The notes beneath the pieces were generated by a model. The model was not told where the DNA came from. It did not search any database and was given only the letters and a program-made list of their open reading frames with translations. 64,000 bases of DNA from Steroidobacter agaridevorans (lineage in GTDB: Bacteria > Pseudomonadota > Gammaproteobacteria > Steroidobacterales > Steroidobacteraceae), in the NCBI RefSeq assembly GCF_009932555.1, contig NZ_BLJO01000008.1:391781-455780 (forward strand), written 5' to 3'. The translations under genes and the position numbers were made by a program. Below are positions 33,536-52,062 of this stretch, piece by piece; the first letter of the stretch is position 1, and each line of letters begins with the position of its first letter.

Positions 33536-33564
33536 GGACGCGCGCCGAAAAATCGTCCTCGAAA

Positions 33565-33580
33565 TCGTCCCTTCCGACGA
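33565..33580 (+). promoter_or_regulatory. Palindromic operator copy 1, upstream of roxA
   Basis: TCGTC-CCTTCC-GACGA, the first of four copies of a shared 16-bp dyad in this block. A -10-like TAGATT starts 22 bp further on (33603-33608), which puts the dyad centre near -42, where class II activators such as LuxR-type proteins bind. The roxA start is 71 bp downstream. A further half-site-like TCGTC lies at 33553. Confidence 0.65.
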
Positions 33581-33651
33581 AGCCGCTCCCGGACCGCGTC
33601 GTTAGATTCACCCTGTACAGAACTCATTCGCTGGGCCGTACAGGGGGAATC

Positions 33652-35682
33652 ATGAGACGCCTAAGACTAGGGAGGGCGTGGGCCGTGCTTGCGGCTGCGC
33701 CCATATTGTTGATGGGTCAGGGAGCCAACGGGCAGAGCTTGCCGTTGCTCGATCAGGCATCGATTCGCTCGCCGCTGATGGCGGGGTGCAATGGCAAGCC
33801 GGACAATACGCCGCTGACGGTGGATCCACGCTCGCTGGTGACATCGGGCGTGAATACCAATCCGAACGCGGCGATTCACTTCAACGCGCCTTTCGTCGAT
33901 CTACACAATCCACCGCCACCCTTCGTGAATCGTCTGCCGCCGCGGCCGAAGACGTGCGGAGAGTTTCGTGCGAGCGCCACTCGCGGCCGGATCAATCTCG
34001 AAGAGCGCCAGTTCTTCCTGCCGATGGCGCTGGCGACCAGCTATCACTTCATCTACCAGCAATGGGGTTATCTGATCCGTCCGTCGGATTTCGAAGAGCA
34101 GGTGGCGAAGCGCTATGGCTTGTATCCTGCGCCGTTCCGCAATCCCTACCCGCTGCCGGGCGAGGATCCCAACCAGACCAATGGCGGCAGCGGACAACTG
34201 CCGTTGGGCTTGATTCAAGGCAAGGACGACAGCGGCAAGTGGACGGGCCTGATCGGCGCGTCCTGCTCGGCATGTCACGACTCTCGCCTCGGCACCGTAA
34301 GCGAAGCGTCGTTCAAGTGGGGTCTGCCCAATAGCGCCAACGATGCCGGATTGCTGGCCTCGGATCTGTTCCGGACCACGCCGATCACGTCGCTGGGTAA
34401 TTTGTTACCGATTCCCTGGAGTAACGGCCGCGGCAGCTCGGATGCAATCGGTCTGATCTCGCTGCTGCCCGCACTGTTCGACATGGAAACCCTGACGTTC
34501 GCGCCGAGCCCGCTCGAGTATGTCGCCGACAGTCCGCACGGAGGCATGACCAAGGCGCCGGCCTGGTGGGCGCGAGCGTTCAAGACGCGCCAGTTCTGGG
34601 ATGGCTCGCTGTCCTCGGACAACGTGCACTCGGAGATGGCGTTCGGTGTCGCGAATCTGTTCCGCGACGCCACCATGCGCCGCAACCTCGAGGATGAGTT
34701 CGAGGACATCAACAACTTCCTGATCTCGCTGTCGCCGGCGACCTATCCAAAAACAATCAACACGGCACTGGCGGAGCAGGGCGCGGTGATCTATCACGAG
34801 CGCGATCTGTGGTCGGGTACCGTGAATGGGGCCATTCCCAAGCCACCCGGCAACGGATCCTGCGCGAGCTGTCATGGCGTCTATTCGCCGCGGCATGCAG
34901 CAGACCCCAACTATCTGCCCGATCCCCGTTTGAAGGGCGTGGCCGGCGTGGTGACCCCGATCGAAACGATCCGCACCGATCCGCAGCGCATGAAGCTGAT
35001 GGCGGACGAGCGCAGCCGCCGCGCCTGGAACAGCAGCTGGTGGGCTTACAACAGTCTCAGCCCGGACTTCACTGGCTACCCATCGGATAGCATCATCGAG
35101 AGCGAGCTGCGTCGCGTGCCGCGCGCGATTTATAACAACGGTGGGCCGATCTATTCGCCGCTCGGACCCAATATCTGGGAAGAGCCGATCGGCTACATCG
35201 CGCCGCCGCTGTATGGCGCCTGGGCCACGGCTCCGTACTTCCATAACGGCAGCGTGCCCAATCTGTGGGGCGTGCTGAAACCGGCGGATCGTCCGAAGGT
35301 GTGGAAGCGGCCGTACACCGCGCCTGGCGTGTTCGGCAAGAACGCGGGATACGACTACAGCTTCGCGTCGTACGATTGGCAGAAGCTGGGTTGGAAGTAC
35401 ACGGCGGTGAATTGCAGCAACAACATCTTCACCTCGCCGTTCCTGCCTTGCACGGCCGGCATGGCGACCATCGATATCCTGTATTCGATGTGGGACAACG
35501 TCGCGGCTCAGTATCTGAACCTGGCGTATCAGGTTCCACCGCCGGTCACGGATCAGCAGATCAAGTCGCGCATGGTCTACAACAGCTATCTGTACGGCAA
35601 CGGCAATGGCGGGCACGACTTTACGCAGTCGCTGACTGATTCGGAGCGTTGGGCTTTGATTGAGTATATGAAGACGCTGTAG
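33652..35682 (+). CDS. roxA: RoxA-type diheme rubber oxygenase family protein
   Basis: A 676-residue exported diheme cytochrome c (signal peptide ending near GANGQ). Haem motifs are CSACH at 205-209 and CASCH at 404-408, and a MauG-type YFHNG follows at 529-533. From memory, RoxA of Steroidobacter 35Y has CSACH at 191, CASCH at 390, Phe301/Trp302, Phe317 and His517. A constant offset of 14 places all of these on Cys205, Cys404, Phe315/Trp316, Phe331 and His531 here. RoxA is a dioxygenase that cleaves cis-1,4-polyisoprene into a C15 oxo-aldehyde. An ordinary diheme peroxidase is about 340 residues and would not fit. RoxA versus the RoxB/LatA relatives cannot be settled by eye. Preceded by the shared palindrome, so probably co-regulated with the catabolic genes downstream. 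Confidence 0.78.
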   Translation: MRRLRLGRAWAVLAAAPILLMGQGANGQSLPLLDQASIRSPLMAGCNGKPDNTPLTVDPRSLVTSGVNTNPNAAIHFNAPFVDLHNPPPPFVNRLPPRPKTCGEFRASATRGRINLEERQFFLPMALATSYHFIYQQWGYLIRPSDFEEQVAKRYGLYPAPFRNPYPLPGEDPNQTNGGSGQLPLGLIQGKDDSGKWTGLIGASCSACHDSRLGTVSEASFKWGLPNSANDAGLLASDLFRTTPITSLGNLLPIPWSNGRGSSDAIGLISLLPALFDMETLTFAPSPLEYVADSPHGGMTKAPAWWARAFKTRQFWDGSLSSDNVHSEMAFGVANLFRDATMRRNLEDEFEDINNFLISLSPATYPKTINTALAEQGAVIYHERDLWSGTVNGAIPKPPGNGSCASCHGVYSPRHAADPNYLPDPRLKGVAGVVTPIETIRTDPQRMKLMADERSRRAWNSSWWAYNSLSPDFTGYPSDSIIESELRRVPRAIYNNGGPIYSPLGPNIWEEPIGYIAPPLYGAWATAPYFHNGSVPNLWGVLKPADRPKVWKRPYTAPGVFGKNAGYDYSFASYDWQKLGWKYTAVNCSNNIFTSPFLPCTAGMATIDILYSMWDNVAAQYLNLAYQVPPPVTDQQIKSRMVYNSYLYGNGNGGHDFTQSLTDSERWALIEYMKTL

Positions 35683-35697
35683 GGTTGATTCTACGCT

Positions 35698-35740
35698 GCG
35701 TAAGTGATCCCTTCGGGGGCGCTTACGCGGTGTTTTCTTT
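35698..35740 (+). terminator. Intrinsic terminator after roxA
   Basis: GCGTAAG pairs with CTTACGC, and the stem extends through further G-C and G-U pairs to a UUCG loop (35698-35728). It is followed by GGTGTTTTCTTTT. It lies 16 bp after the roxA stop. Confidence 0.7.
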
Positions 35741-35749
35741 TGAAGATGA

Positions 35750-36180
35750 AGACCCACCCACCCGCCCTGACTTTTTTTCTTGGCGCTGCGCGCCGGTCGC
35801 TTACGCGGCTCTATGTCCCACCCGCCCGCCCTATCTATATTTTTATGGCGCTTCGCGCCGGCTTGGCGCTGCGTGCCAGTTCCCTCGCGCCTGCTTGGCG
35901 TGGGCCGGACGGCCCGCGCGCAGCGCCCGAAGAAGAATGAGATACGGGCGGGTGGGTGGGTTCTTAAAGCGGTTTCGCGCAGCAGGAATGGGCCAGACGG
36001 CCCGCTCGCGGCGCCAACAGAAAGATAATTCGGGCGGTGGGTTCTTAAAGCGCTTCGCGCAGCAAGAAGGGGCGGACGGCCCGCGCGCGAAGCGCCAACA
36101 GAAAGAAATACGGGTGGGCGGGTGGGCTCTTCAAAAAGCCGTATGGCCCGCGCAGCGCCAACAAAAAGGCGCGCTCTTAA
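35750..36180. repeat. G-quadruplex-rich inverted and tandem repeat island
   Basis: This gene-free stretch lies between the convergent roxA and kinase-like genes. On the right side, units beginning GGCCCG...CAGCGCC(AACA) start at 35911, 35999, 36078 and 36145 (spacing 88, 79, 67 bp). Each carries A-rich, G-run and TCTTaAA segments. On the left side two related units run in the opposite direction. Four uninterrupted G3N1 quadruplex motifs are present: GGGCGGGTGGGTGGG on the minus strand (35753-35767) and, identically, on the plus strand (35946-35960). GGGCGGGCGGGTGGG lies on the minus strand (35817-35831) and GGGTGGGCGGGTGGG on the plus strand (36112-36126). The last unit runs into the stop codon of the kinase-like gene. 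It looks like a dispersed intergenic repeat family, not a coding region. Confidence 0.75.
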
Positions 36181-37259
36181 AACACATCACCACGCGCGAT
36201 GGAACGAGCGAACTGCAACAGCCCTTCGCCGATCTCACCGAACCGCTCATACCGCGAATCGCGAGTCTCCCCTCTCCGCCACCGGACATGAAGTTGTTGG
36301 AAAATCACAGCAGTGCGCATCTGAGCGAGCACGCGATGGAAGCGGAACGTCGAGAGATCTCGCCCGAGCGCCGCTGCATACCGCTCCGCGACCTGCTGTC
36401 GGGTCGGAAAGCCGGCGCTGGCCGTCGGCATCTGCGCCATCTGGTGCATGGCCGCCGGATCGCCAGGCTCGGTCCAGTAACTCAGCAGCACCGCGAGATC
36501 GAACAATCCGTCGCCGCGAGTGCCTTGATCCCAATCGAGGACAGCGAGCGGCGCCAGGCTCGTCGGGTCGAGCAGCACGTTGTCGAGCTTGAAGTCGTTG
36601 TGGAGCAGCGTCGGGCTGGCATCGGGGACACAGTTCTCTCGCAGCCAGTGCGCGAGCTCGATGATCAATTGCAATGTCGTCGGCGTGCCCCAGCCATCGA
36701 CCGCCACGCTTGCGCGTTTGATCCAGCCTTCGGTCGCACGCTGCAGAAAGCCGGAGGGCTTGCCTAACGTTTCCAGGCCAACGCTCGCAGGATCCACCCG
36801 ATGCAGATCGATGAGGATATCCACGAGCGTGGTGCCGAGCGAGGCGCCCACTCTCGCATCACCCGCGAGTGGCGCGGGCAGCGAGTCTCGTAACGAGATG
36901 CCGGTTCGATACTCGACGATCTGAAACGGCGCACCGATGACGCGTGCCTCTTCGCACAGATGCAAGCCGCGCGGCGCGAGCGGAAACTTCTGCCACAGCC
37001 GCGAGAGAATTTGAAACTCACGCGCCATGTCGTATGCACCGGCCGGCAGCGGCCCTTTCGGCGGTCGACGTAGCACGGCCGGTTGACCGTCGAGCCTGAT
37101 CAGATAGTTCAGGTTTGCGAAGCCCCCGGCGAACTGCTGAGGCGGGGTATCGAGATCCAGCTGCATGCCCAGTCCCGCCAGATACTCGGCGAGACGCGGC
37201 CAGTACTGCGGCACGGTTTCGATTTCGGCGCGCATGGTATCGGCTGCCGCGTTCAACAT
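36177..37259 (-). CDS. Phosphotransferase (APH/ACAD10-like kinase) of the acyl-CoA cluster
   Basis: A 360-residue aminoglycoside-phosphotransferase-fold protein with the Brenner loop HNDFKLDNVLLDP and the metal motif LDWDQGTRGDGLFDLA. In lipid catabolic clusters this family resembles the kinase domain of ACAD10/ACAD11, which phosphorylates 4-hydroxyacyl-CoAs so that they can be dehydrated; antibiotic resistance is unlikely. Start ATG 37259 lies 4 bp after the stop of the crotonase gene, giving a three-gene operon with that gene and the thiolase-like protein. Its 3' end abuts the repeat island. Confidence 0.8.
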   Translation of the reverse strand: MLNAAADTMRAEIETVPQYWPRLAEYLAGLGMQLDLDTPPQQFAGGFANLNYLIRLDGQPAVLRRPPKGPLPAGAYDMAREFQILSRLWQKFPLAPRGLHLCEEARVIGAPFQIVEYRTGISLRDSLPAPLAGDARVGASLGTTLVDILIDLHRVDPASVGLETLGKPSGFLQRATEGWIKRASVAVDGWGTPTTLQLIIELAHWLRENCVPDASPTLLHNDFKLDNVLLDPTSLAPLAVLDWDQGTRGDGLFDLAVLLSYWTEPGDPAAMHQMAQMPTASAGFPTRQQVAERYAAALGRDLSTFRFHRVLAQMRTAVIFQQLHVRWRRGETRDSRYERFGEIGEGLLQFARSIARGDVF

Positions 37260-37263
37260 CGCG

Positions 37264-38031
37264 TTACTCTCCACGAAATGCCGGCGGCCGCCGCTCGGCG
37301 AAGGCGCGGACGCCTTCCTGCAGGTCTTGTGTTCGAGCGAGCAGGGATTGCGTATCCGCTTCCCAGGCAAGCATCGTGTCCAGTGACAAGGGCGATCGAG
37401 ACAACATCGCCTTGGTCGTCGCAATCGCGCCGGGCGACGCGGCGGCCAGTTCGTTGGCCAGCTGCAATGCTGCGTCGAGTGTCTCGCCCGGCTTCACCAA
37501 GCGATCGATCAACTGCATCGACAGCGCTTCTTCGGCGCCGACTTGCCGGCACAACATCAGCAGCTCTCGCGTGCGACCGATGCCGATGCGCTGGGGTAGC
37601 GTCCACATCAATCCGTAATCGGACGTGAGGGCCACCTTGCCGAATGCCGCGCACAGCGTCGTCGATGGATCGCCGATGACGAAGTCACATGCCATCGCGA
37701 GCGAGAAGCCGGCGCCGAATGCGCTGCCAGAGACGGCCGCGACGACGGGCAATCGGCCGCCAATCAACGCGCGCACGGCGCGATGGCCGACGTGCATTGC
37801 CGAGCGCATGGCCAGCGGCGCCGAGTCCAGGGAGGAGATATCCCCGCCCGAACAGAAGTGCTTGCCGCCGTACAAGACCAGCGCACGCACCGATGAGTCG
37901 TCTTGCAGCGACGTCAATGTTTGCGAGAGCGCACGGTAGAGCGCGGCGCCCAGGGCATTGCGCTTCTCCGGCACGTTCAATGTCACGATGGCGACATCGC
38001 CGCGATGCTCGACGAGTACCGGTTCACTCAT
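37264..38031 (-). CDS. Crotonase superfamily protein, PaaG/isomerase-like
   Basis: A 255-residue cytosolic protein with the crotonase oxyanion motifs FCSGGDISS and SAFGAGFSLAMACDF. Both catalytic Glu residues of enoyl-CoA hydratase are replaced: Ser where GGGCE has Glu, and no Glu in the AAFGKVALTSDYG block. That block instead aligns with the Asp-containing motif (KIGLIPDxGG) of PaaG and delta3,delta2-enoyl-CoA isomerases. Double-bond isomerisation is therefore more likely than hydration, which suits an unsaturated chain. The start overlaps the thiolase-like stop by 4 bp. Confidence 0.72.
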   Translation of the reverse strand: MSEPVLVEHRGDVAIVTLNVPEKRNALGAALYRALSQTLTSLQDDSSVRALVLYGGKHFCSGGDISSLDSAPLAMRSAMHVGHRAVRALIGGRLPVVAAVSGSAFGAGFSLAMACDFVIGDPSTTLCAAFGKVALTSDYGLMWTLPQRIGIGRTRELLMLCRQVGAEEALSMQLIDRLVKPGETLDAALQLANELAAASPGAIATTKAMLSRSPLSLDTMLAWEADTQSLLARTQDLQEGVRAFAERRPPAFRGE

Positions 38032-39671
38032 GTCACAGTCCAGTAGAGAAGGTGGTCCGCGCCGCGCGTCACTTGGCCCACGCGGCCGATGGGAGTCGTC
38101 GATAGGCTGGTCAACGCTTGCAGCGACGAGCTATCGCTTGCAGCGACGCGCGCCATCAGGCGATGACCGTCGTTGGTGCGAGCGATCACCGTGCCAAAGT
38201 CCGGGTCGCTGCCGCGCCCGTAAACGACGGTGAATGTTTCCAGTGCCGCAGGTCCAGTGAAGTCATCGATCAGTTCCGGCACCGGCCGCCGCTGCCGATC
38301 GGCGCGTGCCTGCACGTCGTCGTCGATCGCTGCGAGGTCGTGCTCTGGCGGCGAGGAACTCAGCAGCAGCGCGTGATGTTTGGTCACGAATTCGCCCTGA
38401 CCGTAAAGCAGAGCGAGGCCGTCATGCTGATTTCGCAGCTGGCGCACCAGGCCCTCGGCCGCATGCGTCATGTAGTTGTTGAGCGGCGCGCCGAAGAAGC
38501 TCAGCCCGCCAATTGCAGTCAGGCGCGCCTTGGTCGGCAGCGCGAGCGCGCGTCGAGCCATCTTGGGCACGATGGGGAAGCAACTGTACAACTCGACGGC
38601 ATCGAATAAGAGCGCCCCGTTTCGAGAGCCCGAGCCCGCGATATCAATCTGGCCCAGAGTCTGCCGGGCGAGAGAGCCCTCTGTATCGAGCCGGCTTGGG
38701 ATCTCCCTGGCGAATGATCTCGCGGTCTCCGAGCGAAGCCGGGTCGCGGCGTCGCGCATTGCTTCCAGCACGGCTTCTTGCGCGTACGAGCGCTGATACT
38801 GGTCGCGAAGCAAATAATCTCTTGGCTCGATCGCGCGCGCGCCGGCCTGAATGAACACGCAACGTTCTTCGGCAATGCCGAGCTCGCGAGCTTTGGCGAG
38901 CGAAGTCAGCACCACCGCAGCGCCTTGGTTCACGAACGGATTCGCGACCATGTGCTTGGTGTAAGGCCAGGCGACCGGACGATTGTCTTGCGACGGTGTC
39001 GCGAGCTGATCGGCGGAGTACGACTGCTTCAACCACGCACTCGGCGTCTCAGCGGCGACTAGCGAAAAATTCGACCACAGCTCCGCCGACTCGCGCATCG
39101 CTTCAACCGGCGTCTGTCCCCACGCCGCCGTCGCCGCGTTTTCGTAGAAGGGATAGACATGGACCGGCTGCGTCATGCCATGACTGATCGCAATGGGATG
39201 ACACAAGTCCTTGCCTCGCAGTAGTCCCGCGTTCGAGCCACGGGGCGACCAGGGCAACTGAACCGATTGTTTGCTTGCGGCGGCGACGGAGTGTTGCGAC
39301 TCGGCGCCGACGACGGCCGCGACGGTACTGTCGCCGGACGCGATGCGCAGTGCTGCCTCGTGAATGAATCGAACCGGCGATTCGCCGCCGGCGACACCGT
39401 ACACACAACGCTTCGGCGTATGACCGAGTCGGGCGGTGAGGACGTCACAGGGCGCGGCATACGGCCAGGAGTGCTCAGCCACGATGTCCAGCGAATCCAG
39501 CGCCGCGAGCAACGAGGGCGCAGCCGAACCGGCGGCATCGTGGAAAGCGCCCAGCAGCGCGTCGACCATCAACGCCGCAGGCTCGCGAGCTTGCGCCAGG
39601 TCTGCTGGCCGGTCGATGACGTCGGCGACGCCGACGATGACGGGAATTCGGTGCGGTGGAACGATTGCCAT
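38028..39671 (-). CDS. Thiolase-superfamily protein without nucleophilic Cys, with C-terminal OB-like domain
   Basis: A 547-residue protein. The N-terminal 450 residues follow the SCP2/acetyl-CoA acetyltransferase-like thiolase fold (VAGGESPVRFIHEAALRIASG, VVGAESQHS, NPFVNQGAAVVLTS, GGLSFFGAPLNNYMTH). At the usual nucleophile position the sequence reads VAGGESP, with no Cys. Residues from about 465 onward form a small domain that could be an OB fold like DUF35. Cys-less thiolases with DUF35 partners include the steroid retro-aldolase Ltp2, so C-C cleavage by retro-aldol chemistry is possible; this is inference. First gene of the operon, with palindrome copy 2 at 52 bp upstream. Confidence 0.72.
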   Translation of the reverse strand: MAIVPPHRIPVIVGVADVIDRPADLAQAREPAALMVDALLGAFHDAAGSAAPSLLAALDSLDIVAEHSWPYAAPCDVLTARLGHTPKRCVYGVAGGESPVRFIHEAALRIASGDSTVAAVVGAESQHSVAAASKQSVQLPWSPRGSNAGLLRGKDLCHPIAISHGMTQPVHVYPFYENAATAAWGQTPVEAMRESAELWSNFSLVAAETPSAWLKQSYSADQLATPSQDNRPVAWPYTKHMVANPFVNQGAAVVLTSLAKARELGIAEERCVFIQAGARAIEPRDYLLRDQYQRSYAQEAVLEAMRDAATRLRSETARSFAREIPSRLDTEGSLARQTLGQIDIAGSGSRNGALLFDAVELYSCFPIVPKMARRALALPTKARLTAIGGLSFFGAPLNNYMTHAAEGLVRQLRNQHDGLALLYGQGEFVTKHHALLLSSSPPEHDLAAIDDDVQARADRQRRPVPELIDDFTGPAALETFTVVYGRGSDPDFGTVIARTNDGHRLMARVAASDSSSLQALTSLSTTPIGRVGQVTRGADHLLYWTVT

Positions 39672-39722
39672 GCTCGAGCCTTACTGTGCGACTCATCCTG
39701 CCCGCGGGCCCAGCGCCGAAAA

Positions 39723-39738
39723 TCGTCAGAACCGACGA
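39723..39738. promoter_or_regulatory. Palindromic operator copy 2, divergent promoter
   Basis: TCGTC-AGAACC-GACGA between the divergent thiolase-like and flavin oxidoreductase genes. On the plus strand TAGCTT starts 22 bp further (39761-39766). On the minus strand CAGGAT starts at the same 22-bp distance (39700-39695). One bound dimer could thus sit near -42 for both promoters. Confidence 0.65.
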
Positions 39739-39821
39739 GGCGTGCTCCTCCCCCGGCCCCTAGCTTGATCGCACCGAAACGATACGAACCGGGGGATCCT
39801 CTGCGCACGCGCATCACCGAC

Positions 39822-40766
39822 ATGCTGGGCATCGCGTATCCCATCGTCCAGGGCGGGATGATGTGGGTCGGCACGGCGCAGCTGGCCGCCGCCGTTTCCA
39901 ATGGCGGCGGCTTCGGCATCATCACGGCGCTGACCCAGCCGACGCCGGAAGCGTTGTGGGATGAGATCGGCAAGTGTCGGACGCTCACCGATCGGCCGTT
40001 CGGCGTGAATCTCACCATGCTGCCGTCGATCAATCCGCCGCCGTACGATTGTTATCTCGACACCATCGTGCGCGCCAAGGTCGCCGCGATCGAAACAGCC
40101 GGCAAGGTGCCGCCCGAGTTCATCGCCATCGCCAAGGCCGCCGGGCTCAAGGTCATTCACAAGTGCGTGTCGTTGCGACATGCATTGTCGGCGCAGAAGC
40201 ACGGCGCCGATGCGATCTCGATCGACGGTTTCGAGTGCGCCGGCCATCCCGGTGACGATGACGTGGGCGGCATGGTGCTCATTCCGGCCGCTGCACGCCG
40301 GTTGTCCGTGCCGATCATTGCATCCGGCGGAATCGGTGACGGCCGCGGCATGGCGGCTGCGCTCGCGTTAGGGGCTGACGGCGTCAACATGGGCACTCGA
40401 TTCTGCGCGACGCGTGAAGCGCCGATCCACGACAACATCAAACAGGCGCTGGTCTCAGCGAGCGAGCGCGACACCCGCCTGATCTTTCGCACCATGCACA
40501 ACACCGCGCGCGTGCTCAGAAACGCGATCTCCGAAGAAGTGGTCGCGGCCGAAGCGAAGGGTTGTCAGTTCGAAGACATCCGCCATCTGGTGGCGGGCCA
40601 GCGCGGGCGTGAAGCGCTGGTCGCCGGCGATCCGAATGGCGGCGTGATCGCGGCCGGCCAGGTGGTGGGCTTGATCGATGACGTTCCTACCTGCGCCGAG
40701 CTCATCGAGCGCATGGTGAACGAATGCCGCGAGCGGCTGCGGCACGTCACGGCTAGTTTTAATTGA
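39822..40766 (+). CDS. NAD(P)H-dependent flavin oxidoreductase (nitronate monooxygenase family)
   Basis: FMN-binding TIM-barrel protein of about 314 residues. Motifs: MLGIAYPIVQGGM at the start, NGGGFGIITAL, the substrate-site FECAGHPGDDD and the phosphate-binding ASGGIGDGRGMAAALALGADGVNMGTRF. Family members next to fad genes are often annotated as nitronate monooxygenase, but many probably reduce or oxidise acyl-CoA intermediates. The start is uncertain: homologues usually have a few residues such as RTRITD before MLGI, and an in-frame CTG at 39801 follows GGGGGAT at good distance. A TTG at 39765 overlaps the predicted -10 box and is rejected. First gene of a plus-strand operon running through the ADP-forming ligase. 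Confidence 0.82.
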   Translation: MLGIAYPIVQGGMMWVGTAQLAAAVSNGGGFGIITALTQPTPEALWDEIGKCRTLTDRPFGVNLTMLPSINPPPYDCYLDTIVRAKVAAIETAGKVPPEFIAIAKAAGLKVIHKCVSLRHALSAQKHGADAISIDGFECAGHPGDDDVGGMVLIPAAARRLSVPIIASGGIGDGRGMAAALALGADGVNMGTRFCATREAPIHDNIKQALVSASERDTRLIFRTMHNTARVLRNAISEEVVAAEAKGCQFEDIRHLVAGQRGREALVAGDPNGGVIAAGQVVGLIDDVPTCAELIERMVNECRERLRHVTASFN

Positions 40767-40798
40767 TAGCGCGCGAGCGCGAGGAGAGGCGGATTCCA

Positions 40799-42943
40799 AT
40801 GTTTCAGGGCGAGTCGATTCGCGTCAGCGCGCTCCAGGACGGCCTTGTCGAGCTGTGTTTCGATCGTAAGGAAGATGCGATCAACAAGTTCGACAAGCGC
40901 ACCGTCAGCGAACTCCAGCAGGCAATCGCGGCGGCCGCGGCTCATGAGGGGCTGCGCGGCGTATTGATCACGAGTGCGAAGCAGTCATTCATCGTCGGCG
41001 CCGATATCGGCGGCTTCGGTGCATTGTTCAGCAAGCCACAGCAGGAAGTCATGTCGAGCAACATGGCTTCCAATCGCGTGTTTCATGCGCTGGAAGGACT
41101 GCCAGTGCCAGTTGTCGTTGCGATTAACGGTTTCGCGCTCGGTGGCGGACTTGAAGCTGCGCTCGCGGCGGACTATCGCGTGATGGCCGTGGATGGCCAG
41201 GTGGGCTTGCCGGAGGTGAAGCTCGGCTTGTTTCCTGGCTTCGGCGGCACTGTTCGTTTGCCGCGCGTCGCGGGAATCGAGGTGGCGCTTCGCTGGATTC
41301 TCGGTGGTGAGCCATCGAAGGCGCCAGCGGCTGAGAAAGCAGGCGTTGTCGATTTCGTCGCAGCACCGGAAGCGCTGCGCGAAACGGCGCTGGAAGTTCT
41401 GGGCCGCGCCGCTCGCGGTGAACTCGACTGGCGTGCTCGCCGATCGGCGAAGCTGGGGCCGGTTCGAACCGAGGGTGTCGATACAAATGCAGTCTTCGAA
41501 GAAGCCGAACGCACGCTCGTCGCGCGCATGCCGAAGCATCAGCCGGCCGCGATGTCGGCGTTGCAGCTGCTGCAGGAGGCAATGCCATTAGACAGAGACG
41601 GTGCGCTGGCGCTCGAGGCCGCCGCATTCGCGAAGATCGCGAAGACTCAAGCGGCCGGATCGCTCGTGCAGATCTTCCTGAGCGAACAGCTCGTGAAGAA
41701 AGCGGCCAAGCGCCATGCGAGCAGCGGCCGGAAAGTCCAGCGTGCCGCCGTGGTCGGCGCGGGCATCATGGGCGGCGGCATTGCGTTCACCAGCGCGAGC
41801 CGCGGCGTTCCGGTGGTGATGAAGGACATCGCACAGGGGCAGCTCGATCTGGGCATCGGCGAAGCGCGCAAGCTGCTCAGCAAACAAGTGACAGCGGGAC
41901 GACTTACTCAAGAGAAGGCGGACGGCGTGCTCGCGTCCATCGTCCCGCAGCTGACGTATCAAGACTTCAACACGGCCGATGTGATCGTCGAAGCCGTCGT
42001 CGAGAATCTGCAGATCAAGCACAGGGTGCTGCGAGAGTTGGAGGACGCCGGCCGACCGGATGCGGTGATTGCGTCCAACACGTCCAGCCTGCGTATCGAC
42101 GATCTCGCCGCGCCGCTTGCGCGTCCGGAAAATTTCGTCGGCATGCATTTCTTCAATCCGGTGCCGATGATGCCGCTGGTCGAAGTCATTCGCGGCGCGA
42201 AGACCAGCGACGCCGCAGTCGGCACAGTGGTGAGCTACGCGCTTTCGATGGGGAAAACGCCCATCGTCGTGCGTGACGGCCCGGGCTTTCTGGTCAATCG
42301 CATCCTCACGCCGTACATGCAGGCGTTCGGACGTTTGCTCGCGGATGGCGCGGACTATGAACAGATCGATGTCGCCATGGAGGCATTCGGCTGGCCGATG
42401 GGCCCCGCGTATCTCAACGATGTGGTCGGCATGGATACCGGCGTGCATGTGGCGGAGATCATTTGTGCCGGTTTCCCCGAGCGGTTGCGCCGGACCTGGA
42501 AGGATCCCTTGCAACTCATGGTCGCGCACGGCCGGCTCGGTCAGAAAAATGGCCTCGGGTTTTATCGTTACGAAGTCAGCGCCAAGGGCAAGCCGGTGAA
42601 GCATCCGGACCCGGTGGCCCGCGTGCTATTGCAGGACGTGCAAACCGACGGCCCGCGCTCGTTCAGCGACGCGGAAATCGTCGAGCGCATGATGTTGCCG
42701 CTGATTATCGAGTCGGCCTTGTGCCTGGAGGAGGGGGTCGTGGCCAGCGCCGCCGAACTGGATATGGCGTTACTGCTTGGCGTGGGTTTACCTTCGTACC
42801 TGGGAGGAGCGCTCAAGTACGCCGACTGGCTCGGCCTGGAACGGGTGATCGAGCTGTCGGAGCGTTACGCTGCCCTCGGGCCGCAATATCAAGCCACGCC
42901 CGCGATGCGCTCCATGGCGCGTGAACGACGGAAGTATTACTGA
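40799..42943 (+). CDS. FadB-like multifunctional enoyl-CoA hydratase/3-hydroxyacyl-CoA dehydrogenase
   Basis: A 714-residue beta-oxidation enzyme. The N-terminal crotonase domain (1 to about 190) keeps both catalytic Glu residues (GGGLEAALAADYRV and GLPEVKLGLFPGFGG). A linker follows, then the NAD-binding motif AAVVGAGIMGGGIA near residue 320, the HFFNPVPMMPLVEVIRG catalytic His segment and the C-terminal dehydrogenase domain. It hydrates trans-2-enoyl-CoA and oxidises the L-3-hydroxyacyl-CoA. Start ATG 40799 has GAGAGG upstream. It is the complete hydratase of this cluster, which fits the crotonase at 37264 having another role. Confidence 0.9.
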   Translation: MFQGESIRVSALQDGLVELCFDRKEDAINKFDKRTVSELQQAIAAAAAHEGLRGVLITSAKQSFIVGADIGGFGALFSKPQQEVMSSNMASNRVFHALEGLPVPVVVAINGFALGGGLEAALAADYRVMAVDGQVGLPEVKLGLFPGFGGTVRLPRVAGIEVALRWILGGEPSKAPAAEKAGVVDFVAAPEALRETALEVLGRAARGELDWRARRSAKLGPVRTEGVDTNAVFEEAERTLVARMPKHQPAAMSALQLLQEAMPLDRDGALALEAAAFAKIAKTQAAGSLVQIFLSEQLVKKAAKRHASSGRKVQRAAVVGAGIMGGGIAFTSASRGVPVVMKDIAQGQLDLGIGEARKLLSKQVTAGRLTQEKADGVLASIVPQLTYQDFNTADVIVEAVVENLQIKHRVLRELEDAGRPDAVIASNTSSLRIDDLAAPLARPENFVGMHFFNPVPMMPLVEVIRGAKTSDAAVGTVVSYALSMGKTPIVVRDGPGFLVNRILTPYMQAFGRLLADGADYEQIDVAMEAFGWPMGPAYLNDVVGMDTGVHVAEIICAGFPERLRRTWKDPLQLMVAHGRLGQKNGLGFYRYEVSAKGKPVKHPDPVARVLLQDVQTDGPRSFSDAEIVERMMLPLIIESALCLEEGVVASAAELDMALLLGVGLPSYLGGALKYADWLGLERVIELSERYAALGPQYQATPAMRSMARERRKYY

Positions 42944-42950
42944 GGCAATC

Positions 42951-44093
42951 ATGCTCGCTCGCACCATCTTTACTGCCGATCACGATGAGTTCCGCAAGAA
43001 TGTCCGGCGCTTCCTGGAAGAAGAATGCGTGCCGCACCACGCGCGCTGGGAGGAGCAGCAACATGTCGACCGGGATATCTGGCGGCGTGCAGGCGAGCTG
43101 GGATTCCTATGCCTCACCGTTCCCGAGGAATATGGCGGCATGGGCGGCGACCGCCTGTACAGCACCGTGCTCATGGAGGAGCAGAGCTATGCCGGTGTGA
43201 CGGGGCCCGGCTTCGCCGTGCACTCGGACATCGTCGCGAACTACATCCTGAATTTCGGCACCGAAGAACAGAAGCACGCCTGGCTGCCCAAGATGGCGAG
43301 CGGCGAGGCGGTCGGCGCCGTTGCGATGACCGAGCCCGGCACCGGTTCGGACTTGCAGGCGGTGAAGACTCGCGCCGAGCGCGATGGCGACGATTACATC
43401 ATCAACGGCAACAAGATCTTCATCACCAACGGCTATCTCGCCGACATCGTCGTGGTGGTGGCCAAGACCGGCAACTCGGGCTCGGGCTCCAAGGACATTT
43501 CCCTGATCCTGGTCGAGAATGGCCGGCCCGGCTTCACCAAGGCATCGCCCTTGAAGAAGGTGGGCATGAAGGCGCAGGACACGTGCGAGCTGTTCTTCGA
43601 GAATGTGCGCGTGCCACGCTCCAATCTGCTCGGCGGCGTGGAAGGGCAGGGCTTTCCGCAGCTGATGAAAGAGCTGGGATGGGAGCGGCTGATCATCGCC
43701 ATTCTCTCGATCTCGGCCGCCGAGGCCGCGCTCAAATGGACGATCGATTACACCCGCACCCGCAAGGTGTTCGGTAAGTCGGTCGCCGAATATCAGAACA
43801 CGCGCTTCAAGCTGGCGGAGCTGAAAGCGAAGATCGCCGTCACGCAAGCGTTCGTCGATCGCTGTCTGGAACTGGTGCTGCAGAATCAGCTGAGTCCCGA
43901 GGCCGCGGCGACCGCGAAGCTCACGGCCTCCGAGCTCGTGTGTCACGTCGTCGATGAGTGCCTGCAGTTGCATGGCGGCTACGGCTACATGCTGGAGTAT
44001 CCAATCGCACGCGCCTTTATCGACAACCGCGCGAGCCGCATCTACGGCGGCACCAACGAGATCATGAAGGAACTGATCGCGAGGACGCTGTGA
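42951..44093 (+). CDS. Acyl-CoA dehydrogenase, LCAD/IVD type
   Basis: FAD enzyme of 380 residues making the first double bond in acyl-CoA chains. FAD/substrate motifs AMTEPGTGSDLQ and ITNGYLAD are present, with the C-terminal QLHGGYGYMLEYPIARAFIDNRASRIYGGTNEIMKELIA. The catalytic Glu is not in the IYxG loop but at about residue 245 in LGWERLIIA, the arrangement of long-chain and isovaleryl-CoA dehydrogenases, which accept methyl-branched substrates. Start ATG 42951, 7 bp after fadB; the stop overlaps the next start (TGATG). Confidence 0.9.
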   Translation: MLARTIFTADHDEFRKNVRRFLEEECVPHHARWEEQQHVDRDIWRRAGELGFLCLTVPEEYGGMGGDRLYSTVLMEEQSYAGVTGPGFAVHSDIVANYILNFGTEEQKHAWLPKMASGEAVGAVAMTEPGTGSDLQAVKTRAERDGDDYIINGNKIFITNGYLADIVVVVAKTGNSGSGSKDISLILVENGRPGFTKASPLKKVGMKAQDTCELFFENVRVPRSNLLGGVEGQGFPQLMKELGWERLIIAILSISAAEAALKWTIDYTRTRKVFGKSVAEYQNTRFKLAELKAKIAVTQAFVDRCLELVLQNQLSPEAAATAKLTASELVCHVVDECLQLHGGYGYMLEYPIARAFIDNRASRIYGGTNEIMKELIARTL

Positions 44094-45757
44094 TGTTGGA
44101 GCGTCTGGAACATTGGGCCCGCACCACGCCCGACCGCACCTACATGACGCAGCCGCTGCCGGACGGCGCTGTCGTCGAATACAGCTGGGCGCGCGTTTGG
44201 GACGAAGCCCGGCGCATGGCGGCGCATCTGCATTCGCTCGGATTGCCCGCCGGCAGCAGCATTGCGATCTATGGCAAGAACTGCGCGCACTGGATCATGG
44301 CGGACCTGGCGATCTGGATGTCTGGCCATGTGAGTGTGCCGCTGTATCCGAGCGCGAGCTCACAAACCGCGGACTACGTGCTGCGTCATTGCGACGCTCG
44401 CCTGATCTTCATCGGGCGAGTGGATGGCATGACGGATAGTTGGAACGACGTACAGCGCGTGCTGCCGGCCACGCTGCCGAAGATCGGCCTGCCGCTGTCT
44501 CCCGCGAGCGTCAGCCCGCGATGGGGCGATCTCATTGCCGCCCGCGAGCCGCTGGCCAAGGCAGTCGAGCGCGATGAGAACGCGCTGGCCACCATCATCT
44601 ATACGTCCGGAACGACGGGCCACCCCAAGGGCGTGATGCACAGCTTCCATTCCTTGATCGCGCCGTGCCTGACCACGAAATCGTTGTGGGGCACGAGCAC
44701 CGAGGATCGAATGCTGTCGTATCTGCCGCTCGCTCACATCGCCGAGCGCGTGGCGCTGGAAGTGCCGTCGCTGGTGTTCGGCTTCCAGGCGTTCTTCAAT
44801 CTCGGCTTGGAAACATTCGCGCAGGATCTGAAGCGGGCGCGTCCGACCCGGTTCTTCTCGGTGCCGCGGTTGTGGACCAAGTTTTATCAAGCCGTGAACC
44901 AGCAGGTGCCGCCGGAGAAGCAGAAGCTGTTGTTTTCCGATCCGGTGCAAGGCCCGATCGTCAAAAAGAACATCCTGGCGGGTCTTGGCCTCGATGCCGC
45001 GACGCTGGGATTCACGGGCGCCGCGCCGCTGCCGGCGCAAATCCTCTCGTGGTACCGCGAGCTGGGGCTGGATCTGATCGAGGTCTATGGCATGACCGAG
45101 AATGCCGCGACTTCTCATGCGAGCCCTCGCGAGGATGTGCGTCCTGGCTATGTCGGCGTGCCTCTGCCGGGTGTCGAGTGTCGGCTCGGCGAGGACGGCG
45201 AAGTGCTGGTGAAAAGTCCCGGGCAGATGCTCGGTTACTACCGGGCCAGCGAAGATTCACAGCAATGTTTTACGTCCGACGGCTTCTTTCGCACTGGCGA
45301 CCGCGGCGAACTGGATGAAGCGGGCCGGCTTCGTATCACGGGCCGCGTCAAGGAGCTGTTCAAGACGAGCAAGGGCAAGTACGTCGCGCCGGTGCCGATC
45401 GAGAATCGGTTGGGCGCGCATCCGTTCGTCGAAGCGATCTGCGTTACCGGTCACGGCGAGCCGCAGCCCTTCGCGTTGCTCATGGTGGCGGCGGACAAGT
45501 ATCGCCAGGCGCAAGCGGACGCGGCTACTCACACGCAGCTCGATCGCGAGCTCGCGACATTGCTGGAGCAGGTCAATGGATCGCTCGAAGATCACGAACA
45601 GGTGGAGTACCTGGTGGTGGTCAAAGAGCCGTGGACCATCGAGAGCGGCTTGCTCACGCCGACGATGAAGATTCGTCGCAGTCAGATCGAGGACCGCTAT
45701 CTCGCACGGGCCGCGCAGTGGCGCGACCTGGCGCAGCCGGTGATCTGGGAATCCTGA
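44093..45757 (+). CDS. AMP-forming acyl-CoA synthetase
   Basis: A 554-residue ligase of the long-chain fatty acyl-CoA synthetase type that activates a carboxylic acid with ATP and CoA. Motifs: P-loop YTSGTTGHPKGVMH near residue 167, YLPLAHIAERV, the adenylate motif VYGMTENAATSH, TGDRGELDEAGRLRITGR, and the KTSKGKYVAPVPIE hinge/lysine region. The type with YLPLAHI resembles long-chain and bubblegum-like synthetases. The start overlaps the dehydrogenase stop by one base, so translation is coupled. Confidence 0.88.
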   Translation: MLERLEHWARTTPDRTYMTQPLPDGAVVEYSWARVWDEARRMAAHLHSLGLPAGSSIAIYGKNCAHWIMADLAIWMSGHVSVPLYPSASSQTADYVLRHCDARLIFIGRVDGMTDSWNDVQRVLPATLPKIGLPLSPASVSPRWGDLIAAREPLAKAVERDENALATIIYTSGTTGHPKGVMHSFHSLIAPCLTTKSLWGTSTEDRMLSYLPLAHIAERVALEVPSLVFGFQAFFNLGLETFAQDLKRARPTRFFSVPRLWTKFYQAVNQQVPPEKQKLLFSDPVQGPIVKKNILAGLGLDAATLGFTGAAPLPAQILSWYRELGLDLIEVYGMTENAATSHASPREDVRPGYVGVPLPGVECRLGEDGEVLVKSPGQMLGYYRASEDSQQCFTSDGFFRTGDRGELDEAGRLRITGRVKELFKTSKGKYVAPVPIENRLGAHPFVEAICVTGHGEPQPFALLMVAADKYRQAQADAATHTQLDRELATLLEQVNGSLEDHEQVEYLVVVKEPWTIESGLLTPTMKIRRSQIEDRYLARAAQWRDLAQPVIWES

Positions 45758-45780
45758 GCTCGACGACCGACCACGACGGC

Positions 45781-47892: not shown

Positions 47893-47915
47893 CGCTCGGC
47901 GCAACTCACGAGAGT

Positions 47916-49124
47916 TTAGAGTCTTTCGACGATCGTCACATTCGCCATGCCGCCGCCTTCGCACATGGTCTGCAGTCCGTAACGCTTGCCACGACGATGG
48001 AGCGCATGCACGAGCGTCGTCATAAGCTTTGTTCCCGAGCCGCCCAGCGGATGACCGAGCGCGATGGCGCCGCCATGCACGTTGAGGCGCTGCGGATCCG
48101 CGCCGGTGACTTTCAAGAACGCCAGCGGCACCGGCGCGAACGCCTCGTTGACCTCGAACAGATCGATGTCGTCGATGCTCATGCCGGCCCTCCGGATCGC
48201 GTTCTGAGTCGCGGGCAAGGGCGCTTCCAGCATGATGACGGGATCATGGCCCATCACGCTCATGTGATGGATGCGAGCGATCGGCGTCGCGCCCAGCTTC
48301 TTCAAGCCGCGCTCGCTGACGATCATGACGCCGGCGGCGCCGTCGCAGACCTGGCTCGCCGTTGCGGCGGTGACGCGCCCATCCTCGGCCAGCAGCTTCA
48401 CGGCACGAATGCCCTCGATGCTGGCGTCGAAGCGAATGCCTTCGTCGATGGTGTGCAGATCGTCGGTCGCGGCAGGCGTCACGATCTCACCGCTCGGCAT
48501 GGTGACCGGAGCGCGACGGATCTGCACCGGCACGATCTCGTTGTCGAACGCCTTGGCCTGGGTCGCCGCGATCGCGAGCTGGTGGCTCTTCAGCGCGTAC
48601 TCATCCAGCTGATCCTTCGACAGGTCGTATTTGCGCGCCATCATCTCCGCGCCCAGGAACTGGCTGAACTCGACGTTCGGATAGCGAGCCTGCATGCCCG
48701 GGCTGACATAAAACCCGAAGCCATGCTTCTGGGGCAGCGAGACCGACAGGCCCATCGGCACGCGCGACATGCTCTCGACGCCGGCAGCGATCACCACGTC
48801 CATCGATCCGGATTGGACGGCCTGGGCGGCAAAATGAATCGCCTGTTGCGACGAGCCGCACTGACGATCCACCGAAGTGCCCGGCACGCTTTCGGGCAAG
48901 CACGACGACAACACGGCGTTGCGCGCCACGTTGAAGCCTTGCTCGCCGACCTGGCTGACGCAGCCCATGATCACGTCGTCGACGGCGTCGCTCGGCGCCT
49001 TGGCGCGAGCCACGAGGGCGTCGATCACCTGGGCGGCGAGGTCGGCGGGATGCCAGCCGGACAGGCGGCCTCCCTTGCGTCCGCCTGCGGTGCGAACGGC
49101 AGCAACAATGTAAGCTTCGGGCAT
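47916..49124 (-). CDS. Acetyl-CoA acyltransferase (thiolase)
   Basis: A 402-residue thiolase that cleaves 3-ketoacyl-CoA with CoA. All catalytic parts are present: nucleophile Cys89 in SVDRQCGSSQQA, His358 in GAIALGHPLGGSGTK and Cys388 in MCEGGGMAN. This contrasts with the Cys-less thiolase-like protein at 38028. It is on the minus strand with its own promoter: TAGAAT at 49172-49167, 21 bp after palindrome copy 4, about 43 bp before the start. It converges on the CoA-ligase operon and diverges from luxR. Confidence 0.92.
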   Translation of the reverse strand: MPEAYIVAAVRTAGGRKGGRLSGWHPADLAAQVIDALVARAKAPSDAVDDVIMGCVSQVGEQGFNVARNAVLSSCLPESVPGTSVDRQCGSSQQAIHFAAQAVQSGSMDVVIAAGVESMSRVPMGLSVSLPQKHGFGFYVSPGMQARYPNVEFSQFLGAEMMARKYDLSKDQLDEYALKSHQLAIAATQAKAFDNEIVPVQIRRAPVTMPSGEIVTPAATDDLHTIDEGIRFDASIEGIRAVKLLAEDGRVTAATASQVCDGAAGVMIVSERGLKKLGATPIARIHHMSVMGHDPVIMLEAPLPATQNAIRRAGMSIDDIDLFEVNEAFAPVPLAFLKVTGADPQRLNVHGGAIALGHPLGGSGTKLMTTLVHALHRRGKRYGLQTMCEGGGMANVTIVERL

Positions 49125-49193
49125 GATCGATTCCTCGGGACGGTACGTTGGAGGGAGCGATCCCGTATTCTAGGCAGCGGCCGGCTCAACACT

Positions 49194-49209
49194 TCGTCGG
49201 ATCTGACGA
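49194..49209 (-). promoter_or_regulatory. Palindromic operator copy 4, thiolase/luxR gap
   Basis: Read on the minus strand it is TCGTC-AGATCC-GACGA. The best -10 in the set, TAGAAT (49172-49167), follows after 21 bp on that strand and would serve the thiolase. The luxR start is 108 bp away on the other side, so the regulator may control its own gene from the same site. Confidence 0.65.
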
Positions 49210-49317
49210 TTGCAGCCGCGGCCAAACCCGCTGAACTGGGCGGCGAGCGAATCAAACATAGTCGATTCATGAGGGGGTTGGGCGCCGGGCGCTGAGCCGG
49301 CGGCCGCGGGTCGATAG

Positions 49318-52038
49318 ATGTACGTGGGATTGCCAAAAAATCGTTCTGACTTCGTCTCGGGCGTGCGCAATCATTTGCTGCTGGCGAAGACCACGCCGCC
49401 GACGCTGCCTGCTTCGCAGATTCTGCGCAAGGAATTGCAGGAACGCTTGTGCCGTGCCGGCGGCGAGAGCGTGGTGTTGATTCAAGCCCCGGCGGGCTTC
49501 GGCAAGACCACGTTGATGCTGCAAGTCATGGACGGCTTGCGCGCCCAGGGCGTCACCACCACCTGGCTGACCGTCGATGCGGCCGACAACGATGTCGGGC
49601 GCTTTCTCGCCTTCCTCGACGCGTCGTTCGATAAGTTGCTGAGCGGCATCGCGCCCGGCACCGAGCCTGAGAACGATGTTGCCGCTGGTGTGATCGCGCT
49701 CGATTTGATGGAGCGCATTGCCTGCACGCCGGCCCCGTTCGTGCTTTTCGTCGATGATGCCGAGTCGTTACAGAACGCAGCGTCGCTCGCGGTGTTGCGA
49801 CAGGTGATCGAGAACCTGCCCGAAGGCTGCCGTGTCGTGATCGGCTCGCGAACGATGTTGGACATCGGCGCTCCCCGGCTGCTCGCTCGCGGTCAATTGC
49901 TGGTGATCGACCCGATGCAGCTTCGATTCTCGGTCGCCGAGACTGGCGACTATCTGCGCGACAAGCGTGGATTGAATGTGCCCGGCGCCGATATCGCACG
50001 GCTGCAAGGCGCGACTGAAGGCTGGCCGGTTGCGTTGTGGCTGGCATCGCTCGCGCTCGAACGCAGTGAGCGCTCTGTCGAGTTGGTGTCGCACTTCTCC
50101 GGCTCGAACGCGTTGGTCGCGGACTATCTCGCCGAGGAGGTTCTCGCTCAGCAAAGCCAGAGCGTGCGTGAATTTCTCGTGCGCACCAGTGTGCTTCATC
50201 ATTTCAACGCGCCGCTCTGCGACGCCGTGCGCGGTCAACGCGACAGTCGAGAAATTCTCGAATCGTTGCAACGCTCGAATCTGTTCGTGCAACGGATCAG
50301 CGAGGACGGCGAGTGGTTCCGCTATCACAGTCTGTTCGCAGGCTTCCTGCGCACTCAGCTGGAAAGGCAGTATCCGCAAGACATCCCCGATCTGCATCGT
50401 GCCGCGTCTCGTTGGTACGACGCGCAGAATCGCCCGGTGCCGGCCGTCGAGCATGCGCTGGCGTCGGCCGATTTCGACTATGCGTTGCCGATGTTGGAAC
50501 GCATCGCCGAGCAGTTGTTGGAAGGCGGGCGCATCCGGCTGCTGGCGCGCCTGCTGGACCTGGTGCCGCCACAGGAGCTGGCGAACTGGCCGCATTTGCG
50601 ATTGATGCACGCCTGGTCGTTGTCCTTCACGAAGGGCGGTCAGGAAGCCATGCAGATGCTGAAGCGCATCGAAGAGCAAGGGCCGCTGCCTCCGCATCTG
50701 GAAGTGCATGCGCTCGCCTTGCGACCGATGTTGCTCACGATGCTCGATCGTTTCGACGAGGCGTACGACGCCGCTCAAGGCGCGCTCGACCGGGTCACGG
50801 CGGAGCAGGTATTTCCCTTCAGCATCCTGCGCACGTCGCTCGCGAATCTGCACATGATCATGGGCAAGTACACGAACGCGCGCGAGCTGCTCGATCGCAG
50901 CCGAGGTCAGCAGGATGCGCCGGCCGGTCCGTTCATGACCATCTTCGCGCAGTGTGTGGAAGGCGCGATCGACCTGCTGCACGGCCGGCTCAGGCAGGCG
51001 ACCGCGCGCTTCAAACATTCCTCCGCCGTCGGCTCGCGCAAGTTCCTCATCGATACGAACGGCAACGCCATGGCCGGCATCCTGCTCGCCGAAGTGCTTT
51101 ACGAGCAGGACGAGCTGGCGGAGGCGGAGCGCTTGCTGAGCGTGTATGTGCCGCTGATGCAGGAACTGGGGATGACGGATCATCTCATCTGCGGCCATCG
51201 CAGCCTGGCACGCATTGCTCATCACGCCGGCGATCACGATCGCGCGCTGCTGGCGGTCACCGAGATGGAATGTTTCGGTCATCGCATGAGTCTGGCGCGC
51301 CTGGTTGCGAACGCGCAGCTGGAGCGGGCGCGACTGGCGTTGTGGCGCAATGATGTGAAGAGCGCGCGTGAAGCATTGCAAAGGGCTCGTGCGGCGGTGG
51401 ATTGGACGCCAGTGATGTCCCGCGCGCTGTTTGGCAACGACATGGACACGTTGCTGGAAGGCCAGCTGCGCCTGATGATTCACAGCGGCGCGGCAGACGA
51501 AGCGGTCAATCAACTCAAACAGGAACTGGAGCGCGCCGAGAACGCCAAGCGCCATCGCCGCGCCCTGAAGCTTCGCATCCTGCTGGCGCTCGCGCTGGAC
51601 AAGGCGGGTAACGCGAAGGCGTCGCTGCGCATGGCTCGCGACGCGCTCCGATTGGGTGCACGCGAACGGTTCGTGAGGATTTTCCTCGACGAGGGCGAGC
51701 CGATGCAGCGGCTGTTGCAGCGGTTGTCGCTGGCCCAGCAGAACGAGCTCGACGAAACCGCGAACCTGGCCGAGTACCTGAAACGGCTCGCTGGCCTGCG
51801 CACCGAAAAGGTCGAAGCGCCGGCCCCGACGCCCGGGGCCACCGAGGCATTGACCCGCAAGGAGCTGGAAATTCTGCGGCTGCTGGCCGAGGGGTTGTCG
51901 AATCTGGCGATTGCCGGCCGCCTGTTCGTGTCGGAGACCACGGTGCGCACCCATTTGCGCAATATCAACGCCAAGTTCGGCGTACATAACCGCACCCAGG
52001 CCATCGCCGTGGCCCGCAAGCTGAACCTCATCGCCTGA
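49318..52038 (+). CDS. MalT/AlkS-type LuxR family ATP-dependent activator
   Basis: A 906-residue STAND-type regulator. Walker A APAGFGKTT is at 57-65 and Walker B FVLFVDDAE near 141-149. Then come the winged-helix and TPR-like helical region (about 400-840) and a C-terminal LuxR HTH at 845-906 (LTRKELEILRLLAEGLSNLAIA...TVRTHLRNINAKFG). MalT and AlkS are signal-activated ATP-dependent activators; AlkS controls alkane oxidation in Pseudomonas. Here the gene sits in the middle of the acyl-CoA block, and four copies of one palindrome surround it, so it is the best candidate for the regulon's activator. Start ATG 49318 has a poor Shine-Dalgarno sequence, suggesting low expression. Confidence 0.87.
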   Translation: MYVGLPKNRSDFVSGVRNHLLLAKTTPPTLPASQILRKELQERLCRAGGESVVLIQAPAGFGKTTLMLQVMDGLRAQGVTTTWLTVDAADNDVGRFLAFLDASFDKLLSGIAPGTEPENDVAAGVIALDLMERIACTPAPFVLFVDDAESLQNAASLAVLRQVIENLPEGCRVVIGSRTMLDIGAPRLLARGQLLVIDPMQLRFSVAETGDYLRDKRGLNVPGADIARLQGATEGWPVALWLASLALERSERSVELVSHFSGSNALVADYLAEEVLAQQSQSVREFLVRTSVLHHFNAPLCDAVRGQRDSREILESLQRSNLFVQRISEDGEWFRYHSLFAGFLRTQLERQYPQDIPDLHRAASRWYDAQNRPVPAVEHALASADFDYALPMLERIAEQLLEGGRIRLLARLLDLVPPQELANWPHLRLMHAWSLSFTKGGQEAMQMLKRIEEQGPLPPHLEVHALALRPMLLTMLDRFDEAYDAAQGALDRVTAEQVFPFSILRTSLANLHMIMGKYTNARELLDRSRGQQDAPAGPFMTIFAQCVEGAIDLLHGRLRQATARFKHSSAVGSRKFLIDTNGNAMAGILLAEVLYEQDELAEAERLLSVYVPLMQELGMTDHLICGHRSLARIAHHAGDHDRALLAVTEMECFGHRMSLARLVANAQLERARLALWRNDVKSAREALQRARAAVDWTPVMSRALFGNDMDTLLEGQLRLMIHSGAADEAVNQLKQELERAENAKRHRRALKLRILLALALDKAGNAKASLRMARDALRLGARERFVRIFLDEGEPMQRLLQRLSLAQQNELDETANLAEYLKRLAGLRTEKVEAPAPTPGATEALTRKELEILRLLAEGLSNLAIAGRLFVSETTVRTHLRNINAKFGVHNRTQAIAVARKLNLIA

Positions 52039-52046
52039 CACCCAGA

Positions 52047-52062
52047 TCGTCAGTTCCGACGA
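52047..52062 (+). promoter_or_regulatory. Palindromic operator copy 3, upstream of TonB receptor
   Basis: TCGTC-AGTTCC-GACGA, 9 bp after the luxR stop and 62 bp before the receptor start. The -10 element is less clear than at the other copies; CACTCT at 52086-52091 is the nearest candidate. Confidence 0.6.

Follow-up and report, generated by a model that had tools for sequence, protein, structure and literature searches.

In the class II mode of activation by LuxR-type regulators, the lux-box dyad lies about 42 nt before the transcription start. Steroidobacter agaridevorans encodes, within a 64-kb stretch of contig NZ_BLJO01000008.1 (the whole of the DNA analysed, hereafter the window), a large regulator that shares with them the GerE domain and whose putative dyad would be centred some 42 nt upstream of the predicted start; no autoinducer domain was found in it, and its dyad is shorter. 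Its NTPase, TPR and GerE architecture is that of MalT of E. coli, yet MalT, as presented in PMC9628970, uses short MalT boxes (GGA(T/G)GA) where a dyad is found here. The closest known kind is AlkS, a LAL activator with an inverted repeat, and the mechanism considered below is thus of a known kind. The AlkS/PalkB system of Pseudomonas putida GPo1 and Alcanivorax, likened here by the description of AlkS in PMC8784404 only, combines a large MalT-like regulator, an inverted-repeat promoter operator and hydrocarbon catabolism; it differs in having a 20-bp inverted repeat and alkane genes as targets, against a 16-bp dyad with an A/T (WW) core at RoxA, TonB receptor and beta-oxidation genes.

Rubber-cleaving enzymes are also under the control of LcpR and TetR-type regulators of lcp in actinobacteria (as described in PMC7413915), which belong to another protein family, govern another enzyme (Lcp) and act in Gram-positive hosts. 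The rubber-gene regulators that we found in the literature all control Lcp in these actinobacteria (PMC7413915), and neither RoxA nor RoxB was found to have a described regulator or operator in the openly licensed PubMed Central papers searched. Among those papers none was found that joins four of the five terms LuxR, nitronate monooxygenase, thiolase, TonB receptor and MalT, and the regulator-operator pair, its clade and a rubber regulon were likewise not found there, in line with the preliminary description of this DNA, which took operator and regulon to be undescribed. On comparative sequence evidence, we consider it likely that the 906-aa LAL regulator, a putative class II activator of roxA, the TonB receptor and CoA/beta-oxidation genes, uses TCGTC-NNWWNN-GACGA as its operator.

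The LAL regulator and the rubber block

The regulator contains a MalT-like TPR region (PF17874) and a C-terminal GerE domain (PF00196), both above the Pfam cutoffs, and its residues 24-423 match the MalT structure 8bob (E 3.4e-49), a STAND-type NTPase, the general Pfam AAA models remaining below their cutoffs on this protein. These matches, together with a score of 371.5 bits for the NCBIfam MalT equivalog (cutoff 537), identify it as a LAL protein and not as MalT. It is 98% identical to the regulator of Peristeroidobacter agariperforans KA5-B, and the recognition helix TVR(T/A)H(L/M)RNI was present in all eight close relatives aligned and in none of ten distant LAL proteins.

The genes around it (Table 1) include roxA and a large set of CoA and beta-oxidation functions. 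The NMO-type gene probably starts at a CTG codon, as judged from the letters around it: this CTG is preceded by GGGGGA, letters that recur in P. agariperforans; in Povalibacter an ATG is present further upstream. Directly upstream of roxA lies a gene with an N6/N4 DNA methylase domain (32423-33535), 95% conserved in P. agariperforans. The block also holds an APH-family kinase (36177-37424, minus strand) and an acyl-CoA dehydrogenase (42921-44093, plus strand), a pair that resembles the 4-hydroxyacyl-CoA route as outlined for LvaA/LvaC and ACAD10/11; such a route would fit the 4-oxopentanoyl (levulinyl) end that the presumed chemistry predicts from ODTD.

Table 1. Features of the rubber block, its operator sites and candidate -10 elements (window coordinates), and RoxB
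Feature	Position	Strand	Remarks
roxA, rubber oxygenase A	33652..35682	+	NCBIfam NF050033 1274 bits (cutoff 1000); PDB 4b2n 1423 bits
Enoyl-CoA hydratase and APH-family kinase genes	36177-38031		Downstream of thiolase-like gene; Pfam, NCBIfam
Thiolase-like protein, TLP1_add_C domain	38028..39671	-	Pfam, NCBIfam
NMO/FabK-type flavoprotein	39801..40766	+	First gene of plus-strand run
Plus-strand run: NMO/FabK-type flavoprotein, FadB-like, acyl-CoA dehydrogenase, AMP ligase, CoA ligase	to 47892	+	
Thiolase	47916..49124	-	Pfam Thiolase_N/_C
LAL (MalT/AlkS-type) regulator, 906 aa, proposed ligand	49318..52038	+	GerE DNA-binding domain, residues 844-899
TonB-dependent receptor	52125..54446	+	Pfam
ADH, SDR, ALDH, acyl-CoA dehydrogenase and SDR genes	to 60429		After TonB receptor; Pfam
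Operator site 1, TCGTCCCTTCCGACGA	33565..33580	+	Upstream of roxA
Operator site 2, TCGTCAGAACCGACGA	39723..39738	.	Divergent gap, thiolase-like / NMO-type genes
Operator site 3, TCGTCAGATCCGACGA (read on minus)	49194..49209	-	Gap between thiolase and luxR
Operator site 4, TCGTCAGTTCCGACGA	52047..52062	+	Before TonB receptor
-10-like TAGATT	33603..33608	+	22 nt after site 1
-10-like CAGGAT	39695..39700	-	22 nt from site 2, towards thiolase-like gene
-10-like TAGCTT	39761..39766	+	22 nt after site 2, towards NMO-type gene
-10-like TAGAAT	49167..49172	-	21 nt after site 3
Weak -10-like CACTCT	52086..52091	+	23 nt after site 4; the poorest promoter of the four
RoxB	own genome, contig C3		NCBIfam NF050034 1072 bits (cutoff 900)

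Four sites in the window

The window holds exactly four copies of TCGTC-N6-GACGA. Re-reading its sequence placed them at the positions and on the strands given in the preliminary description, which had also seen no copy in the other gaps it checked by eye, and no further exact copy exists in the window. The central two bases are A or T in all four, which gives the form TCGTC-NNWWNN-GACGA. The fuller consensus first proposed, TCGTCAGWWCCGACGA, holds for three of the four sites and fails at 33565, where the spacer is CCTTCC; the A said to precede the motif is present at all four window sites and missing from three of four in Povalibacter. A matrix made from related sites, with the four window sites in its training set, scores these at 20.8-23.9 bits and the next best place in the window at 14.0. 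A direct repeat, AAATCGTC...AAATCGTC, with its copies 12 bp apart, overlaps the roxA operator at 33550-33569 and is perhaps an additional half-site.

The proposed operator travels with close relatives of the regulator

Under a fixed rule of ±1.5 kb, a site was found beside nine of eleven homologues scoring at least 479 bits (window included) and beside one of 45 below 479 bits, where it falls inside the gene itself; the two close homologues with no site within 1.5 kb are those of Parahaliea and Cupriavidus sp. EM10. This sample comprised 56 of 88 entries, after alignments shorter than 600 residues, no-hit entries and duplicate proteins had been dropped; it excluded the 98-100% copies L023, L073 and L074, and several of its loci had flanks shorter than 1.5 kb. 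The eleven close homologues share a branch in a quick tree (SH-aLRT 99).

P. agariperforans has an exact site 1 (L103:2460). In Povalibacter uvarum (L024/L104; regulator 67-68%) each of the four orthologous promoters carries a site with exact arms and an altered spacer, among them the counterparts of site 3 (L104:17896) and site 4 (L024:12708); its roxA has been relocated between the thiolase-like and NMO genes, and the corresponding site sits in the new gap (L104:5405). In Parahaliea maris (regulator 41%, RoxA 60%), TAGTCCGTAGGGACGA (L025:16198) lies upstream of roxA, with one arm mismatch and TATCTT after 22 nt. Sites also adjoin the regulators of G004 and G007, two genomes of the window's genus (44-46%), those beside one of the two G007 regulators (L076) having one mismatch. 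A gammaproteobacterium of another family, G530 (regulator 41-42%), has five exact WW sites no further than 20 kb from its regulator, four in the stretches examined and the fifth 18.6 kb on, plus a one-mismatch site upstream of the regulator; two of the exact sites precede homologues of FadB (58%) and thiolase (70%), and no Rox homologue occurs in its regulator-linked stretches examined.

The association was then put to a prediction on plasmids, where 400 records were searched with the regulator and six were chosen, among the 20 matches listed, by regulator similarity alone. Three exact sites each were found in Cupriavidus metallidurans CH34 (41%) and Paracoccaceae La 6 (37%), all six with the WW core and four of them with YANNNT at 22 nt, and a one-mismatch site with TAATCT at 22 in C. 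necator N-1 (42%). No site was found in 26.6 kb of Cupriavidus sp. EM10 (regulator 36%), nor with the two plasmid homologues at 29%. A marine Paracoccaceae plasmid (CP031586.1; L193:77-24917) carries a beta-oxidation gene set like that of the block (APH, ligases, acyl-CoA dehydrogenases, NMO, thiolase, FadB) and a TRAP transporter, with an operator of the same type and no rox gene in the stretch.

Most relatives with the regulator keep the motif, and its spacing from the probable start signal of related genes varies little; the four sites therefore look like genuine regulator sites. The proposal that the MalT/AlkS-type protein is their ligand gains support, at the level of sequence comparison, from the presence of sites next to its close relatives among gamma-, beta- and alphaproteobacteria, but not next to more distant paralogues. 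As for the rubber genes, class searches of 369 genomes each, the window's own included, gave four genomes with the regulator at 1e-100 and three with a Rox protein at 1e-60, and G530, if among those drawn, is not one of the three. An order-wide search found Rox proteins at 1e-60 in three of 392 genomes, two in each, and these are the same three that have a 67-100% regulator. G448, a genome without a regulator match, has two Rox-bearing loci with no WW-core site at up to one mismatch, apart from a single match unconnected with rox.

A fifth site at the RoxB locus

The RoxB locus of the same genome encodes, besides RoxB, a Mo-cofactor enzyme subunit, a TonB receptor, an AMP ligase, an MPAB_Lcp_cat protein and a small LuxR. 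The last two genes diverge around a fifth operator (L148:15408-17251, on G000:C3), a pair found as well in P. agariperforans and Povalibacter. Since the RoxB locus carries this intergenic site, the regulon is probably not confined to the block.

The small LuxR at this locus, unrelated to the LAL protein, offers the first rival explanation: the operator could belong to this autoinducer-type regulator, the LAL protein being a mere neighbour. The gap between small luxR and the MPAB gene has a top-scoring site (22.7 bits) in all three RoxB-bearing genomes examined (G000, G001 and G013, the last with a rearranged gene order), with YANNNT 21-23 nt away towards small luxR in each, and the recognition helix of the small protein also begins with TVR. 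Against this, no homologue of the small LuxR was found at E <= 1e-15 in G530, G004 or G007, all of which carry the operator, so it is not the operator's general partner; moreover, the operator tracks the LAL clade into other classes. We regard ownership by the small LuxR as improbable; the protein may instead be controlled by the LAL regulator, or both may use the site.

Promoter geometry

The preliminary description had noted TAGNNT elements 21-22 bp beyond three of the sites, and these are present at offsets of 22 (33565), 22 (39723) and 21 (49194, minus strand); at 52047 there is no TAGNNT at the corresponding distance, only CACTCT at 23. Among 17 exact-arm sites from the regulator-linked stretches of the window, Povalibacter, G004, G007, G530 and Parahaliea (P. 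agariperforans being left out), all 17 have the WW core, and in 14, read in one direction or both, YANNNT starts precisely 22 nt beyond the dyad, compared with none to three at any other offset from 8 to 49. In the remaining three the element is offset by 21 (thiolase of the window) or by 23 (receptor of the window, thiolase of Povalibacter), and site 2 has it at 22 on both sides; one of the 14, the Povalibacter receptor site, matches at 22 only in the direction pointing back into the regulator gene. This count sets no condition on the -10 and is the one relied on here, whereas a separate offset count (18 of 21) used chosen orientations.

A composite of site and -10, scanned through 17 whole genomes with orientation-specific rows, gave 27 matches in the six genomes with a close regulator and one in the eleven without (reversed controls, one and one), and, counted from the places listed, 23 of these 27 fall no more than 20 kb from the regulator; G000 and G001 are close kin, so that not all of these counts are independent. 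One further place, G000:C8:273084, with TCGTCGTTTCTGAGGA and TAAGAT at 22, is a candidate extra member. No -35 element stood above background in 26 promoters (best match 2.42 of 6, against 2.17 in shuffled sequence), which had been selected for having a -10, three with offsets set by hand (21, 23, 23). If transcription starts at the customary distance from the -10, the centre of the dyad would fall near -42; the nearly constant distance to the -10-like element is consistent with this position, already suggested in the preliminary description, and the absence of a -35 above background fits activation from there.

The same geometry bears on the possibility that the dyad is a repressor operator, through which the LAL protein or another factor would block the promoters until induction. 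Palindromes in promoters are typical of repressors too, and the Paracoccaceae cluster has a TetR-type gene annotated as KstR; but the spacing from the dyad to the -10 downstream of it is almost invariable and no -35 stands above background, as expected of activator-dependent promoters, and no TetR gene occurs among the block genes scanned. We accordingly give repression little credence beside activation by the LAL regulator.

Genome-wide density

Random density of the motif outside the block, which the preliminary description had named as adverse to a regulon, is not what the genome scan showed. A loose pattern, TCGTCNGNWCNGACGA with one mismatch allowed, had many matches that read as coding and was dropped in favour of the WW-core form, TCGTCNNWWNNGACGA. 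The arms alone occur at 84 places in the 8.0-Mb genome (reversed control 36), and the exact WW-core form at 12 (reversed control 4), four of them in the 18.5-kb block and one at the RoxB locus. The eight outside the block comprise six in coding sequence, the RoxB-locus gap and one other gap without an obvious related gene. For 12 sites placed at random, the probability that at least four fall within one specified 18.5-kb stretch of the 8.0-Mb genome is about 1e-8, and within one specified 64 kb about 2e-6, the latter being the fairer figure because the block was delimited by the sites themselves. That a GC-rich genome simply yields such palindromes, four of which caught the eye, is barely credible: for all the arm-only matches genome-wide and the one-mismatch matches scattered in the window (15 seen, 5.3 expected), WW-core sites are few and concentrated in the block, orthologous sites are conserved despite spacer turnover at constant spacing, the control genomes gave a single composite match and the plasmid prediction found sites.

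Of the six WW-core sites in coding sequence, two (L002:1501 and L008:1501) are found shortly after the presumed starts of ccmB and a CoA-transferase III gene. Either gene could be relevant to growth on rubber, ccmB serving the cytochrome c maturation needed for Rox haem; as both sites are in coding sequence they were not counted, and they are probably coding coincidences.

Proposed mechanism and implications

With the dyad as the operator of the LAL regulator, a simple scheme can be drawn. The regulator, probably in dimeric form, would bind the dyad by means of the GerE domain at its C-terminus and would recruit RNA polymerase from about -42 by class II activation, which needs no -35. It would thereby switch on roxA for extracellular rubber cleavage, the TonB receptor for uptake, and the CoA/beta-oxidation genes. 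The trigger could be a rubber-cleavage product or its CoA derivative; RoxA produces ODTD, a C15 compound that cells can take up, as reported in PMC5979037. In relatives the regulon is retained on beta-oxidation genes with no rox nearby, so the effector is more likely a beta-oxidation metabolite than rubber itself.

A broader hypothesis, to which we give even chances, is that a single LAL regulator with an undescribed operator governs the use of rubber (polyisoprene) by these Gram-negatives as its master activator, uniting the roxA block and the RoxB locus in one regulon, either directly or via the small LuxR. Rubber use would then have arisen when an older and widespread beta-oxidation regulon, as seen in G530, Cupriavidus and the Paracoccaceae plasmid with no rox nearby, captured roxA by placing its operator before it. 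If this is true, the signal is an intracellular breakdown product and not rubber itself. The operator, the regulator and the list of targets make the sensing of an insoluble polymer directly testable, and would provide an inducible promoter for work on RoxA. Furthermore, since the operator accompanies the regulator in three classes of proteobacteria (NCBI taxonomy), the motif can serve as a marker for related beta-oxidation regulons.
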